Below are positions 47,775 to 54,646 of a stretch of DNA of 64,000 nucleotides, piece after piece. The notes beneath the pieces are model-generated. The model did not search any database, was not told the origin of the DNA, and saw only the letters and a program-made list of their open reading frames with translations. The stretch covers positions 1 through 64,000 of the forward strand of contig JAFPYS010000002.1 in NCBI GenBank assembly GCA_017412085.1, written 5' to 3'. Position numbers and translations under genes: made by a program. This DNA comes from Alphaproteobacteria bacterium (GTDB lineage: Bacteria > Pseudomonadota > Alphaproteobacteria > CAAHEQ01 > UBA3637). The stretch's first letter is position 1. The number at the start of each line of letters is the position of its first letter.

Positions 47775-48508
47775 TGCGTTATAAATTTATCATTGAATAT
47801 GACGGCACACCTTTTATCGGCTGGCAAAAACAGGCCGGTCAACTTTCCGTTCAGGGCGTGATAGAAGACGCCCTTAAAACATCTCTTCGCCACCCCGTCA
47901 CCGTTTGGGGATCGGGTCGCACAGACACAGGTGTTCATGCCATCGCTCAGGTGGCCCACATTGAAACAAAAGAAAAATTGGACACTTATCGTTTATTTGA
48001 ATCTTTAAATGCGCTTGTGCGCCCTTATCCCATTAGCATAAAAAGTATCGAAGAGGTTGATGATGATTTTCATGCACGCTTTTCAGCAAAAATGCGTCAC
48101 TATATTTATAAAATTCAAAACACGCCTTATCCACCTTCCATTAACAAGGGACATGTTTGGTGGGTGCGCCCCAAATTAAACATTCAAAAAATGCAACAAG
48201 CCGCCGATGTGATGTTGGGTAAGCATGATTTTTCCACCTTTCGCGCCAGCGAATGCCAAGCAAAAAGCCCCGTAAAAACGCTCTCTCATTTTGAGATTAT
48301 TCAAAGCGGTGACCTCATTGAGTGTCATGTCAGCGCGAAATCTTTTTTACACCACCAAGTTCGCAACATGGTTGGCACGTTAGAATTGGTCGGTGAAGGG
48401 AAATGGTCGGTGGAAAAATTTAAAAAAGCATTTGATGCTTGTGACCGCACAAAAGGGGGACCAACCGCTCCACCTGAAGGTTTATATTTTGAATCTGTGG
48501 AATATTAA
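47774..48508 (+). CDS. truA: tRNA pseudouridine(38-40) synthase
   Basis: 244 residues. Modifies uridines 38-40 in the anticodon arm. Start RYKFIIEYDGTPFIGWQKQ and catalytic Asp in GSGRTDTGVHA are diagnostic; SFLHHQVRNMVGTL and the C-terminal APPEGLYF are family motifs. Last gene of def-fmt-truA; ends convergent with rluD (four-base overlap), with no hairpin between. Confidence 0.97.
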   Translation: MRYKFIIEYDGTPFIGWQKQAGQLSVQGVIEDALKTSLRHPVTVWGSGRTDTGVHAIAQVAHIETKEKLDTYRLFESLNALVRPYPISIKSIEEVDDDFHARFSAKMRHYIYKIQNTPYPPSINKGHVWWVRPKLNIQKMQQAADVMLGKHDFSTFRASECQAKSPVKTLSHFEIIQSGDLIECHVSAKSFLHHQVRNMVGTLELVGEGKWSVEKFKKAFDACDRTKGGPTAPPEGLYFESVEY

Positions 48509-49485
48509 AGTTTTTCCAACTTTTCTTTTAGCTCTTGCATATCAGACGGCATCGGCACTTCAAAAACCAACTGTTTCCCCGTTGTCGGATGAACAAATCC
48601 CAACACGCCAGCATGCAATGCCTGCCTTGGAAAATCACGCACAAAATCCGGTGCATTTTTAGGTGGATGGCCATAGGTATAATCGCCCACAAGCGGATGG
48701 TGAATAGAACTCATGTGTACACGAATTTGATGCGTTCTCCCCGTTTCCAAAACGCACTTTACATGGCTCACTATACCACCACCAAACACGGCCAAGCGTT
48801 TATAATGCGTTACGGCCGATTTTCCTCCAGTCTTCACTAAAGCCATTTTTTGACGATTCGTACTTGATCTTCCAATATTGCCTTCAATACGCCCTTCTTC
48901 CTGTTCAACCTTACCCCAAACAAAGGCTTGATATTCACGTTGAATAGAATGCACCTCAAATTGTTTTGCCAATGATAAGTGAGCCTTATCATTTTTGGCC
49001 ACAACCAACAAACCGGATGTGTCTTTATCAATGCGATGCACAATACCTGGACGTTGCACGCCCCCCACGCCAGATAAACTGTCGTGACAATGAAATAACA
49101 AACCATTTACCAATGTGTGTTCCCAATTTCCGGCGCCTGGATGCACAACCAAACCTGCCGGCTTATTTACCACCAAAACATCATCATCTTCATAAACAAT
49201 ATCCAGTGGCATATCTTCTGGCTTCACATCGGCGGGCTCTGGCGCCGGCAAATCAATCTCAAACACCTGCCCCTTTTCGACCTTCATATCCGGATGATTG
49301 GCAAAAAAGCCCGTGCTTTTCACTTTTACTTTGTTGTCTTCAATCAATCGAATAAACGCATTACGAGACACATCGGGAAACGTGTCCGCCAAAAACTTAT
49401 CTAACCGCTTTCTGGAATTCCCATCAGAAACAGGCGGAGTTACCAATAAATTCGGATATTCTTCTAAATCGACCTCATCTATCAT
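48505..49485 (-). CDS. rluD: 23S rRNA pseudouridine synthase, RluD type
   Basis: 326 residues from the ATG at 49485. S4 domain (RKRLDKFLADTFPDVSRNAF), then RluA-family catalytic domain with HRIDKDTSGLLV (catalytic Asp) and ETGRTHQIRVHM. The longer frame reaching 49539 is rejected because a promoter (49493-49521) lies inside it. That promoter puts the transcription start within a few bases of the ATG and no ribosome site is present, so the mRNA is probably leaderless. Which uridines are targeted (RluD versus RluC sites) is inferred from the S4 plus LHAGVLGF pattern. Confidence 0.93.
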   Translation of the reverse strand: MIDEVDLEEYPNLLVTPPVSDGNSRKRLDKFLADTFPDVSRNAFIRLIEDNKVKVKSTGFFANHPDMKVEKGQVFEIDLPAPEPADVKPEDMPLDIVYEDDDVLVVNKPAGLVVHPGAGNWEHTLVNGLLFHCHDSLSGVGGVQRPGIVHRIDKDTSGLLVVAKNDKAHLSLAKQFEVHSIQREYQAFVWGKVEQEEGRIEGNIGRSSTNRQKMALVKTGGKSAVTHYKRLAVFGGGIVSHVKCVLETGRTHQIRVHMSSIHHPLVGDYTYGHPPKNAPDFVRDFPRQALHAGVLGFVHPTTGKQLVFEVPMPSDMQELKEKLEKL

Positions 49486-49492
49486 GGCAATC

Positions 49493-49521
49493 AGTATATC
49501 AAAAACCTGATCTTTTCGCAA
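49493..49521 (-). promoter_or_regulatory. Promoter of rluD, giving a probably leaderless mRNA
   Basis: Minus-strand TTGCGA (49516-49521), 17 bases, TATACT (49493-49498); only seven bases separate the -10 from the ATG. Confidence 0.65.
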
Positions 49522-49529
49522 ACTTTTTA

Positions 49530-49558
49530 TTGACACCAACTTCAGAACACGTTAATAT
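49530..49558 (+). promoter_or_regulatory. Promoter of the FliF-FliG fusion gene
   Basis: TTGACA (49530-49535), 17 bases, TAATAT (49553-49558), about 40 bases before the TTG start. It is back to back with the rluD promoter, nine bases between the two -35 boxes. Confidence 0.7.
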
Positions 49559-49598
49559 CTTAGTACGAAGGGAATTTAAAAAAAAGAAAGGGAAGGTT

Positions 49599-51320
49599 TT
49601 GGCTCAAAAAAACAATGGGATAAAAGTTCTGTTTTTCCTCGTACTGGTTGTTTGTATTGTATGCGCAGCCACATTGTTTTTAGTGCCTACTTGCCAATCA
49701 ACCCTTTCGCCTGTTTTATCTTCTGAAAATGAAAATTTTTTAACCCTACAACAAAAGTATGCCCGGCAACAAGAAAGAATAATTTTAAATTTACTGGAAC
49801 CAGTCGTGGGACGCGGTCATGTACGCGCTTCTGTTCGATTGGATTTAAATCTAAAAAATGCACGGCATAATTTACACACATATACGCCTCAACCAGAAAA
49901 AGGCGTTATTTCTCAACAAGTTTCCGAAAAGGAAATTCAAAATCTTATTCAAAAACAAAATGTCAGCATCATCATAGATGGCAACACAAGAAAAGGGGAT
50001 AATGGAATTTACCAAGCACGCACAGGCCAAGAGATGGCTAATTATAAGCGCCTTGTCCAAAGTGGTATTGGATTTGACTCTCAGCGTGGAGATACGTTGG
50101 AAATTATAAACATGCCCTTTGTTAAAAGGTTGCATTCAAAATCCAACTCTATCTTTTTATTTATCATTGCTTTGCTTTTAATTGGCGCTGGTCTCTCTTT
50201 CATTTCCATGAGTTTTGCACACTGTGCTCATTCCTGGCGTAAAGAAGCCAAAGCAATGCAATTTTCAACAGATATTTTGGATAAAATAACTGATAATCCA
50301 ACTAGAGCTATTTCTGTAATAAAAAATTGGATTTACATGCCCGTATCCTCTAAAGGCTCAGATTGGACCCCTATTCAAAAAGTTGGCATCATATTGTTGG
50401 CATTAGATGAAAGTGTCGTGCGTCAAATTCTGATAGCATTGGATGACAATGAGGTGCGCCGGGTTGCAAAGACTATGACCACGCTTGGCGTTATTCCTCC
50501 ACAAGAATCCGCCCGCGTTTTGACAGAACTATATGACGCAATGACGAACGGATCTGCTGTGGTTGGAAATCCCACACGAGTTCAGCAAATTTTGGCCGAA
50601 AGCCCTAAAGAAGAAACGTTGAAATTCAAAGAAACATTACAACCCACAAATTCGTCATTATGGGATGAATTTGCTGCTCTAAATTCCGAAACATTGGCCC
50701 CACGTTTAAGTAATTTACGCCCAGAAATCGTGGCTTACATCTTGTATCGTTTGCCCGCCGAAAAAGCAAGTGATTTATTACAAAATCTTCCCGACAACAG
50801 GGTCACACAAATTTTAATCCACCTGAGTCATATCGGATATATCAGTAACACAACAAGCGCCAAAATGGAGCAAGAGGCTCTTGTAATTGCACGAAACATA
50901 TTAAACACTGTTCACACCCCCACGGGTACAGAAAAAACATCGGATATTTTGTCTTGCATGGCCAAGACGCCCAAAGCTCAATCCGTTTTAAAAGATCTAA
51001 ATCAAAGCGAACCATTTTTAGCCCGAAAACTCGCAGCAAAGCTCATTCGATTTGATGACCTATCTCACTGGCCAGATGAAGTTATTCAAACCATTTTGCG
51101 CCACACACCAAGAGCGACTGCAATTTTGGCTCTGGTAAATGCACCAGATTCAGTTATGCAAACCATCCAACATAGTATCCCAGATTCTCTTTGGCCTCAG
51201 CTACAAGAAGAAATCAAACAAAAGGGGAAGTCTGTACGCCCAGAGCAAATTGAACAAGCGCGCGAGCAAATGATAGAAACAACTCGAACACTTTTAAATC
51301 AAGGAAAAATTCAACTTTAG
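49599..51320 (+). CDS. Fusion of FliF RBM3 region to FliG
   Basis: 573 residues from TTG at 49599 (AGGGA five bases upstream; the frame-open TTG at 49530 is the -35 box). Membrane span about 9-30; RBM3-like periplasmic domain about 45-175 (LLEPVVGRGHVRASVRLDLN, GDTLEIINMPF, as in FliF); second span about 184-206; cytoplasmic FliG-like part about 255-573 (VGIILLALDESVVRQI; RPEIVAYILYRLPAEKASDL; final EQAREQMIETTRTLLNQGKI). FliF RBM1 and RBM2 are absent. In FliG the EHPQ motif and the charged torque helix (here WPDEVIQTILRHTPRATAI) are not conserved. No flagellar gene adjoins except the FlhG-like one. A membrane ring or scaffold rather than a motor is inferred. Confidence 0.85.
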   Translation: MAQKNNGIKVLFFLVLVVCIVCAATLFLVPTCQSTLSPVLSSENENFLTLQQKYARQQERIILNLLEPVVGRGHVRASVRLDLNLKNARHNLHTYTPQPEKGVISQQVSEKEIQNLIQKQNVSIIIDGNTRKGDNGIYQARTGQEMANYKRLVQSGIGFDSQRGDTLEIINMPFVKRLHSKSNSIFLFIIALLLIGAGLSFISMSFAHCAHSWRKEAKAMQFSTDILDKITDNPTRAISVIKNWIYMPVSSKGSDWTPIQKVGIILLALDESVVRQILIALDDNEVRRVAKTMTTLGVIPPQESARVLTELYDAMTNGSAVVGNPTRVQQILAESPKEETLKFKETLQPTNSSLWDEFAALNSETLAPRLSNLRPEIVAYILYRLPAEKASDLLQNLPDNRVTQILIHLSHIGYISNTTSAKMEQEALVIARNILNTVHTPTGTEKTSDILSCMAKTPKAQSVLKDLNQSEPFLARKLAAKLIRFDDLSHWPDEVIQTILRHTPRATAILALVNAPDSVMQTIQHSIPDSLWPQLQEEIKQKGKSVRPEQIEQAREQMIETTRTLLNQGKIQL

Positions 51321-51330
51321 AGGTTTTTCC

Positions 51331-51939
51331 ATGCCATTTATTTTACAACAAGCTTCCTCGCAAAAGAAAACGATTTTTTATACTTTAACATCTGCCGCTC
51401 CTCATACAGGGGTTAGTTTTGTCGTTTGTAAAACAGCACAAAATTATGCCAAACAAGGAAAAAAAGTTTTGATTTTTGATGCTTTGCTGGGGCTTAAAAA
51501 TTACCCCTTACATAACCCAAATCAAAATAAAATTTCTGCAGTGTTAGATGGGCTTACTCCACTCACCGAGCTGATCATGCCACAGCAAAAAAACATTGAT
51601 GTTATCACAGGAATGTCAAATTGTAATATCAGTGCTATCCCCCATGCCAATCAACAACGAATTAAAAACGATCTACAACAATTAGCATCAAATTATGACG
51701 TCGTTTTAATTGATTTACCAAGCTCCATAACCTCTTCTATTTTTTCTGATTATGAAAACATTCAATGGGTCTCAACCGCCGATCAAACGATCTTACTTAA
51801 AACACTAAAAAAAATCGCACCTTTTTCCAATCCCAGCTTAATCTTAAATCAAGTAAAAAATCATGAAGAACGCAATGCCTCTCATCTTTTTATTAAAAAT
51901 TTAGTACCACAATGTCAGATTATCGACTTTTTTGAATAA
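51331..51939 (+). CDS. FlhG/MinD-like protein with degenerate P-loop
   Basis: 202 residues, shorter than FlhG/FleN (about 270-300). The fold is recognisable: SAAPHTGVSFVVCKTAQNYA at the Walker A position, KKVLIFDALLGLKNYPLH (FlhG: DADLGLAN), and YDVVLIDLPSSITSS at Walker B. The deviant Walker A lacks both Lys and the Gly-Lys-Thr/Ser (PHTGVSF), so ATP binding is doubtful. FlhG-type ATPases set flagellar number and place; here it follows the FliF-FliG fusion by ten bases (AGAGG before ATG), which supports a shared complex. Confidence 0.75.
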   Translation: MPFILQQASSQKKTIFYTLTSAAPHTGVSFVVCKTAQNYAKQGKKVLIFDALLGLKNYPLHNPNQNKISAVLDGLTPLTELIMPQQKNIDVITGMSNCNISAIPHANQQRIKNDLQQLASNYDVVLIDLPSSITSSIFSDYENIQWVSTADQTILLKTLKKIAPFSNPSLILNQVKNHEERNASHLFIKNLVPQCQIIDFFE

Positions 51940-51983: not shown

Positions 51984-52018
51984 TATCATAGTATGGTTTT
52001 ATCACACAAGGAATGACT

Positions 52019-54646
52019 ATGAAATTTAAGAAATTGTTTGGCTCAGCCAACGAACGCTATCTCAAAAAGTTTGCAAAATATATCAAAGAAATCAATGCGC
52101 TTGAAGAACAATATCAAAAGCTTTCCGATGAAGAATTGAAAGCAAAAACCCCCGCTTTTAAGGAACGCCTTCAAAATGGGGAAACTTTGTGGGATATTTT
52201 GCCCGAAGCCTTTGCAACGGTGCGGGAAGGCGCAAAACGTGCCTTGGGATTACGGCCTTTCGATGTTCAATTACTGGGCGGTATCGTTTTATTTGACAAT
52301 AAAATTGCCGAGATGAAAACTGGCGAGGGTAAAACCTTGGTCGCCACATTGCCTGTTTATCTAAACGCTTTGACTGGCAAGGGCGTCCATGTTGTTACGG
52401 TCAACGATTATTTGGCCGCTCGTGACAGCGAATGGATGGGCAAAGTCTATCGCTTTTTAGGCCTCACTGTTGGCTGTATCATTGCCAATATGAGCAAAGA
52501 ACAACGCAAAGCCGCCTATGAATGTGACATCACTTATGCCACCAATAACGAGCTTGGATTTGACTATTTGCGTGATAATATGTGTGTCAATAAAAACGAA
52601 ATGGTTCAACGCCCTTTCAATTATGCTATTGTGGATGAAGTGGACTCGATCTTAATCGACGAAGCCAGAACGCCTCTTATTATTTCTGGGCAAGCAGAAG
52701 ATTCTTCTGAACGCTATATTGCCGTGGACAAGATTATGTCGGGTGTTCAACCAGAACACTATGAAAAAGACGAAAAACACAGAAATGTCACACTAACAGA
52801 TGCAGGTATTCAATTTGTAGAAGATGCCCTGCATAACGCAGGCTTGATGGTCGGTGGACTGTATGAAACAGACAATATCGCTTTCGTACACCACGTGGAA
52901 CAAGCCTTGCGCGCGCACACACTTTTCCAAAAAGATGTGGATTACATTGTCAAAGATGGCAAAGTTATGATTATCGATGAATTTACAGGGCGCATTATGG
53001 ATGGCCGCAGATACTCCAACGGTCTTCATCAGGCGTTAGAAGCCAAGGAGGGTGTAGAGATTCAACCCGAAAACCAAACTCTGGCTTCCATCACATACCA
53101 GAACTATTTCCGCATGTATCCTCATTTGGCTGGTATGACAGGTACCGCCATGACAGAGGCCGCCGAATTTGATGATATTTATAAACTACAAGTGGTTGAT
53201 ATTCCGACAAACAAACCTGTCGCCCGCAAAGACGAACAAGATGCCATTTATCGCACAGCAGAAGAAAAATACGATGCCATTATCAAGGAAATTCAAAAAG
53301 TTCATGATCGTGGGCAACCCATTTTGGTTGGCACAACAAGTATCGAAAAATCTGAAATTTTGGCAAATCTATTAAAACAAAAAACAAATATTCCATTTAA
53401 TGTGTTGAATGCGCGCCACCATGAACAAGAGGCTCATATTATTGCACAAGCTGGCGTTCCTGGCGCAGTGACTATCGCCACAAACATGGCCGGTCGCGGA
53501 ACAGATATTCAATTGGGCGGCAATTTTGAGATGCGTTTTAACGAACAAAAAGAGGCTCACCCAGACATGGATGAAACTTTGTTGGCTGAAAAAATTAAAG
53601 CTGAGATTGCCGAGGGCAAACAAAAGGCCTTGGCTGCTGGTGGCTTATATGTTTTAGGTTCCGAACGCCATGAAAGTCGCCGTATCGATAACCAATTACG
53701 CGGCCGATCCGGTCGTCAAGGTGATCCCGGTCAATCCAAATTTTACGTCAGTTTGGAAGACGATCTGATGCGTATTTTTGGTTCCGAACGAATCGGACGT
53801 ATTTTGAAGACCATGGGTTTAAAACAAAATGAAGCTATTGAACATCCTTGGATCAGTAAGGCTATTGCCAAGGCGCAACAAAAAGTCGAAGAATATCACT
53901 TTGATGTGCGTAAAAACCTTCTGAAATTTGACGATGTTACAAATGATCAACGCAAAATTATCTATGAACAACGCAAAGAAATTATGGAAATGGATGACGT
54001 TTATCCTGTGATGCAAGATATGCGCCAAGACACCATTACATCCCTTGTTTATTCTATTGCACCGGAGCGCACTGCACCAGAAGATTGGAATGCCGAAGAA
54101 TTGCGTCAAGAAACAATTAAGTTACTTGGCATAGATGCCCCATTTGCAAGCTGGAAAAATGAAGCCGGCATTGAACCGCAAGTTATGATTGATCGGTTAA
54201 TGAAGTTGGCCGATGAAGCTTGGCAAGAAAAAACAAAGATTCTGCCCCCAGACTTTAAAAAAGATTTTGAAAAAACTTTGTTGATTCAAACAATTGATAC
54301 GCTGTGGAAAGAACATTTACAAAGTTTGGACTTCATGAAGACCTCTATTGGCTTGCGAGCCTATGGACAACAAAATCCTTTGAACGCCTTCAAGCAAGAA
54401 GCTTTTCATTTGTTCCAAAATTTGTTGGGACGCGTGCGTGAACGTTTAACGGAAACCATGGGACGTTTGGAATTGAAATTGGCACCAGAGCCACCATCCT
54501 CACAAACAGAGGAAACTCCTGAAACGCCCGCCGAACAAGATCCGATCCCTCCTGTTGACACAAAAAAAGAAATCGGACGCAATGATCCCTGCCCTTGTGG
54601 TTCCGGCAAAAAATACAAACACTGCTGCGGCAAATTAGATGCCTAA
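52019..54646 (+). CDS. secA: Preprotein translocase ATPase SecA
   Basis: 875 residues from the ATG at 52019 (AAGGA six bases upstream; another ATG two codons earlier is too close). Motor of the Sec pathway. Walker [15 protein letters not shown], Walker B in [24 protein letters not shown]-type region ([11 protein letters not shown]), helical scaffold [18 protein letters not shown], and C-terminal zinc-binding tail [13 protein letters not shown] for SecB and lipid binding. Full length. Overlaps the convergent sodB stop by 12 bases. Confidence 0.98.

Follow-up and report, generated by a model that had tools for sequence, protein, structure and literature searches.

The FliF-FliG fusion locus

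The window, by which we mean the whole stretch of 64,000 nucleotides that was analyzed, contains a compact locus in which a gene for a FliF-FliG fusion is followed directly by a short gene for a protein related to FlhG. The features on which the following argument depends are these.

48505..49539, minus strand: RluD-type pseudouridine synthase, conserved divergent neighbor
49530..51320, plus strand: FliF-FliG fusion, at most 596 aa long depending on an uncertain TTG start (Pfam and PDB sequence matches, hydropathy, AlphaFold)
51331..51939, plus strand: FlhG-like pseudo-ATPase, 202 aa (ORF, fold, locus slot, presence in 11/11 genomes of the genus)
51331..51342, plus strand: N-terminal MPF[ILV] peptide, in all ten complete genus members
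51394..51417, plus strand: degenerate P-loop AAPHTGVS, residues 22-29, aligned with GKGGVGKT of canonical orthologs
51478..51480, plus strand: switch-I Asp D50, retained in 11/11 genus members
51712..51714, plus strand: Walker-B Asp D128, shared by the window protein with three relatives and lost in the other seven genomes
52013..54646, plus strand: secA, conserved downstream neighbor and locus marker

The flanks of this rluD - fliFG - FlhG-like gene - secA arrangement are common to the window and the sister genera, where the locus reads rluD - FliF/FliG - FlhF - canonical FlhG - secA. The FlhG-like ORF opens with an ATG 10 nt downstream of the stop codon of the fusion, with an AGAGG-like site between the two, so the direct adjacency claimed in the initial annotation stands. 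In Pfam, the fusion matches FliF_C, FliG_N, FliG_M, and FliG_C, and its layout is a first TM helix, one FliF ring-building domain, a second TM helix, and the N, M, and C domains of FliG, the N-terminal domains of FliF being absent. Its AlphaFold model has a pLDDT of 71 and a pTM of 0.30, and at that pTM we left the domain arrangement uninterpreted. Alignment of the fusion led to four close relatives, all of them MAGs (UBA3650, RGIG1600 from goat abomasum, a rumen co-assembly, and RGIG10246 from yak rumen). Many prepilin-like proteins with a RSMVEMLGVLAIIGVLSVGG leader are encoded near the loci across the family (L060:2514-5167, L066:1-2961, L093:10772-12838).

Identification of the neighbor as FlhG

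Sequence profiles of the window protein are ambiguous, weakly matching AAA_31, MinD, and tyrosine autokinases, and its identity as FlhG was settled instead by fold ranking, by single flhG matches in sister genera, and by the shared rluD and secA flanks. The AlphaFold model, built from the ten complete same-genus sequences in an alignment that held no canonical FlhG, has a pLDDT of 86, and its top PDB match is FleN-AMPPNP (5j1j, Z 19.3, 2.4 Å over 191 residues), followed by FlhG (4rz3, Z 18.9), with MinD (16-17) and ParA ranking lower. A first scan of the genome contigs with the single window protein as query gave no matches. In 17 sister-genus genomes there is one match each to the window protein (E 3e-5 to 8e-16), which at the loci that were read is nearly always an flhG adjoining fliF/fliG/flhF or secA; the exception is G019, with a weak match in an unrelated genomic place. 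Since the same slot in the sister genera holds a canonical FlhG, the window protein is an FlhG ortholog turned pseudo-ATPase. Fold and synteny thus both bear out the FlhG-like assignment of the initial annotation, and the other features that it named are present as well, the DALLGLKN segment at residues 50-57 and, in the switch region, the switch-I Asp.

Tyrosine autokinases (Wzc/CapB) come out marginally ahead when the window protein is scored against NCBIfam and PDB sequences, and they resemble it in their PGxGKS-type loop. They are ruled out by the locus, the fold ranking, and the missing tyrosine tail: the C-terminus reads QIIDFFE with no tyrosine cluster, and the loop has no Lys of the GxGK[ST] type expected of Wzc/CpsD. 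The protein was also considered as the MipZ of this genome and rejected, a separate MipZ being encoded at G000:C21 (E 3.5e-84).

The chain of the window protein stops at the equivalent of FleN residue 215, about 60 residues short, and therefore has no room for the C-terminal amphipathic membrane-targeting helix, which is absent. An N-terminal FlhF activator motif of the DQAxxLR type is also absent from the window protein, which begins MPFILQQASS, although this is weakly discriminating because canonical members of the family were likewise seen to be without it. The MPF[ILV] segment has low AlphaFold confidence yet is conserved, and its codons differ at third positions, so it is conserved as protein and is perhaps a docking element.

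Loss of the ATP site

When the window protein is aligned with 18 FlhG-type orthologs, including 16 from the same family, its P-loop is seen to have retained the Gly and the Ser/Thr and to have lost both lysines of GKGGVGKT. The deviant Walker A motif KGGxGK[TS] is absent from the protein, and the Walker A motif that the initial annotation had called destroyed is indeed gone; it had read PHTGVSF in place of GKGGVGKT, which picked out the right loop in a register that was off by two residues. A canonical P-loop occurs in none of the 11 genomes of the genus, so close relatives do not contradict the loss, and its recurrence in all 11 rules out a sequencing or assembly error. In sister genera, by comparison, the loop is GKGGVGKT or a variant in which one or both of its basic residues remain. 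Partly altered examples there include GKGGVGRT in G020 (L062:6055-6783) and GGGGNGKT in G026 (L068:7926-8714), in which the flhF frame is also split into 242 + 78 codons.

Within the genus, the degree of loss varies. The loop Gly and Ser/Thr and the Walker-B Asp are all retained in G000, G010, G004, and G002; in G007, the Walker-B Asp is replaced by Tyr; and G001, G003, G005, G006, G008, and G009 have no recognizable loop and no Walker-B Asp, with the G003 gene truncated by a contig end so that only the end of its loop is visible. The window protein is almost certainly no longer able to use ATP. In its subclade, however, a P[HK]xG[VIC][ST]-like loop persists together with the Walker-B and switch-I Asp, and weak nucleotide binding may persist there.

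Conservation within the genus

The gene is nonetheless maintained. It is present in 11/11 genomes directly behind the FliF-FliG-derived ORF (in G003, each of the two sits at a contig end, on separate contigs), which settles in the affirmative the co-occurrence on which the pairing proposed in the initial annotation depended, and the genus forms one clade in the FlhG tree with a support of 0.95. All ten complete copies are uninterrupted ORFs of 200-210 aa at amino acid identities down to 21-25%, and pairwise dN/dS is 0.11-0.24 for the FlhG-like gene and 0.11-0.25 for the fusion, values that are rough because dS is near saturation. Intact frames and dN/dS together rule out a pseudogene.

The fusion itself is more variable. 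FliG_N and the FliF tail are gone from it in six genomes of the genus, which means that the putative complex has not stopped changing. One subclade (L055, L058, L059, L060, L061) has lost the cytoplasmic tail of FliF and FliG_N and has retained both TM helices and FliG_C. Across the wider family, FliF-FliG and FlhG are separable, because sister genomes G015 and G024 have an FlhG with a Lys-bearing P-loop and no FliF/FliG that we could find, and genus g3 has the fusion without FlhG. In G015 (L100:3071-3934) and G024 (L009), of genus g6, the FlhG loop reads PKSGIGKS at the rluD-secA locus, where FlhF was not found. The g3 fusions (L067:5836-7617, L070:5684-7036, L063:6453-8321) have no FlhF/FlhG alongside, and in two g3 genomes (G012, G022), the fusion adjoins a long dnaE-like gene.

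An apparent motor module in sister genera

This lineage of gut and rumen Alphaproteobacteria has lost the flagellum. FlhA was found in 0/21 and FliP in 0/27 of the family genomes tested, and rod and hook domains were absent from 20/21, with one weak 24-residue match in G015; the same searches do detect flagellate class members and control species. The window's genus was also searched for FliM/FliN, the FlhF N-terminal domain, and MotB_plug, none of which was found. A survey of small-genome gut Alphaproteobacteria of the order Rs-D84, which may or may not include the window's family, reported flagellar machinery missing and nothing further (PMC12306168).

In three sister genera, g5, g8, and g9, what remains is more extensive. 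The flagellate class member G034 (L105) has an operon fliF-fliG-fliH-fliN-motA-regulator-flhA-flhF-flhG, an order shared up to flhF by G042 (L102). In g5, g8, and g9, the operon reads fliF-fliG-fliN-motA-flhF-flhG, without fliH, the regulator, and flhA, and FliF has shrunk from about 560 to about 290-320 residues with the loss of its N-terminal domains. A second operon holds fliL, fliM, a DUF6468 gene, a MotE-like gene, and two short MotB-like genes, the second of which encodes the channel Asp, and it also encodes a secreted protein 620-670 residues long. Rotor, stator, FliL, FlhF, and FlhG loci without FlhA, FliP, or rod and hook genes are seen at L092 and L087 (G018), L098 and L090 (G017), L093 (G014), L088 (G023), and L089 (G025). 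A secreted protein of 470-670 aa ends the fliL-fliM-motB operon at L087:10579-12447, L088:4751-6772, L089:10375-12378, L090:6018-8027, and L096:4743-6158; it is also retained in G021, where most other parts are lost, and a gene of similar size stands at the operon end in the flagellates L101 and L104.

The torque-generating residues of FliG were compared in the C-terminal region of 27 family sequences (E. coli numbering). K264, D288 (as Glu), D289, and R297 are conserved in 8/8 g5/g8/g9 genomes and are fully intact only in these three genera, whereas genera without detected MotB (g1, g2, g3, g7, g11, g13) show partial or complete erosion of these residues. A MotB search of five of the eight g5/g8/g9 genomes was positive in all five. 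The state of the torque residues tracks the detection of MotB. Continuing rotor-stator contact without a filament is the best explanation, and by their gene content, g5, g8, and g9 apparently keep a flagellar motor although the flagellum is gone. The open-licence literature that we searched held no precedent for a flagellar rotor and stator retained without a filament.

A proposed pseudo-ATPase partner and its alternatives

FlhG has been described as cycling between an ATP-bound dimer and a monomer, with a C-terminal helix on the membrane and coupling to FlhF and the C-ring (PMC12826062). In the reading that we favor and hold to be probably correct, the window's FlhG has become a constitutive partner of the FliF-FliG fusion in a non-flagellate lineage. 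The MinD-type fold is retained, but the P-loop has lost its grip on ATP, which would have ended the ATP-driven cycling between monomer and dimer and on and off the membrane. The protein would probably dock on the cytoplasmic FliG surface of the membrane-anchored fusion, with MPF[ILV] as a candidate element, and would act as a static cap, spacer, or localization adaptor of the fusion complex. We infer the physical binding of the pair, its ring formation, its localization, and its exact role. ATP is unlikely to be needed for the function retained in the genus, since members with no ATP site at all still keep the gene. Because relatives that lack the whole ATP site remain under purifying selection, the suggestion in the initial annotation of an adaptor rather than an ATP switch is supported as the best reading. 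The ring and positioning module that it also suggested would be conjecture, and placement of the division site has its own, separate MipZ in this genome.

The opposing view, that both genes are dying and functionless relics of a lost flagellum, draws on the reduced genomes of about 1 Mb, on the visible erosion of the active site and of the FliG domains, and on the loss of one or both genes in several sister genera, but it has to accommodate intact frames in ten of ten complete copies that have diverged so far, dN/dS well below 1 in both genes, adjacency kept throughout, and an N-terminal MPF invariant at the protein level, and we think it unlikely. We are slightly more doubtful still that the loop of the window's subclade has been rewired for a different mode of binding to a nucleotide or phosphate ligand, which would make the protein a ligand sensor. 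G000, G010, G004, and G002 retain Gly27, both acidic residues, and residue 29, which is Ser except in G002, where it is Thr, and the profile similarity is to autokinases with a PGxGKS loop; yet both P-loop lysines are missing (G002 has a Lys at another loop position), and species of the same genus without loop or Walker B still retain the gene.

It is about equally improbable that the pair marks a pole or division site, as FlhG does with MS- and C-ring proteins in Campylobacter jejuni. The wider family retains nearly the same set of proteins, but FliM, FliN, and FlhF are missing from the window's genus, and in C. jejuni itself, minicells were affected hardly or not at all in the fliG mutant. 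All family genomes tested encode MipZ, which removes the need for a Min-type substitute and likewise weakens the idea that the pair replaces a missing Min/MipZ system.

To return to the constitutive partner that we favor, the findings suggest that the pair is retained for a non-swimming job. The genus has no flagellum, FlhF, or FliM/FliN, so the pair is what reduction has left of a larger motor module that was retained, and not a new two-protein machine. The sister genera point to a route in which the flagellum would have been lost while rotor, stator, and FlhF/FlhG were retained, and in which the window's genus would have dropped the stator, FliM/N, FlhF, and the ATP site, with FliF fused to FliG and FlhG freed from its dependence on ATP. 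In a wider scenario, for which we see the case as evenly balanced, the window's pair would be the stripped-down final form of a motor that survived the loss of its flagellum: in g5, g8, and g9, an energized membrane ring would turn or transmit force without a propeller, and the window's genus would have lost the drive and kept an ATP-independent complex of FliFG and pseudo-FlhG.

Comparison with known systems

The window protein shares with FlhG/FleN/YlxH proteins the fold, the site beside fliF/fliG, the DxxLGL motif of switch I, and the Walker-B Asp, and differs from them in its missing Walker-A lysines, its shorter C-terminus, and a genome that has neither an FlhF or FliM/N partner nor a flagellum. 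In FliF-FliG fusion proteins such as the Vibrio FliFG construct (PMC11481574), the C-terminus of FliF is likewise joined to FliG, but the window's fusion is natural, has one FliF ring-building domain between its two TM helices, and occurs in bacteria without an export gate or rod. Control of division by FlhG and the MS- and C-rings in C. jejuni (PMC3228812) is similar in that an export-independent job is carried by nearly the same gene set; there, however, FlhG is an ATPase and the flagellum is complete, while the window's genus has MipZ and FlhF, FliM, and FliN are gone. Buchnera basal bodies (PMC8109811) are another case of flagellar parts in a reduced genome with a non-swimming job, although Buchnera kept the export machinery and basal body, exactly what the window's lineage lost while keeping rotor parts. 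Compared with Wzc/CapB, the window protein has no tyrosine tail, and its locus and fold ranking favor FlhG.

Implications

FlhG is understood as an ATP switch, and a genus-wide ortholog without an ATP site would reveal its ATP-independent functions. Of the larger module that g5, g8, and g9 still have (FliF, FliG, FliM, FliN, FliL, MotA, two MotB-like proteins, FlhF, and FlhG), the window's pair is all that is left. Pseudo-ATPase FlhG and FliF-FliG close a series of reductions, one stage of which is an apparent motor without a flagellum, a context that adds interest over the pair alone. A family without export apparatus, rod, or hook but with rotor, stator, and FlhF/FlhG is a natural test of whether a motor is useful without a filament, a question relevant to the evolutionary assembly of the flagellum and to the non-motility functions of MS- and C-ring proteins.
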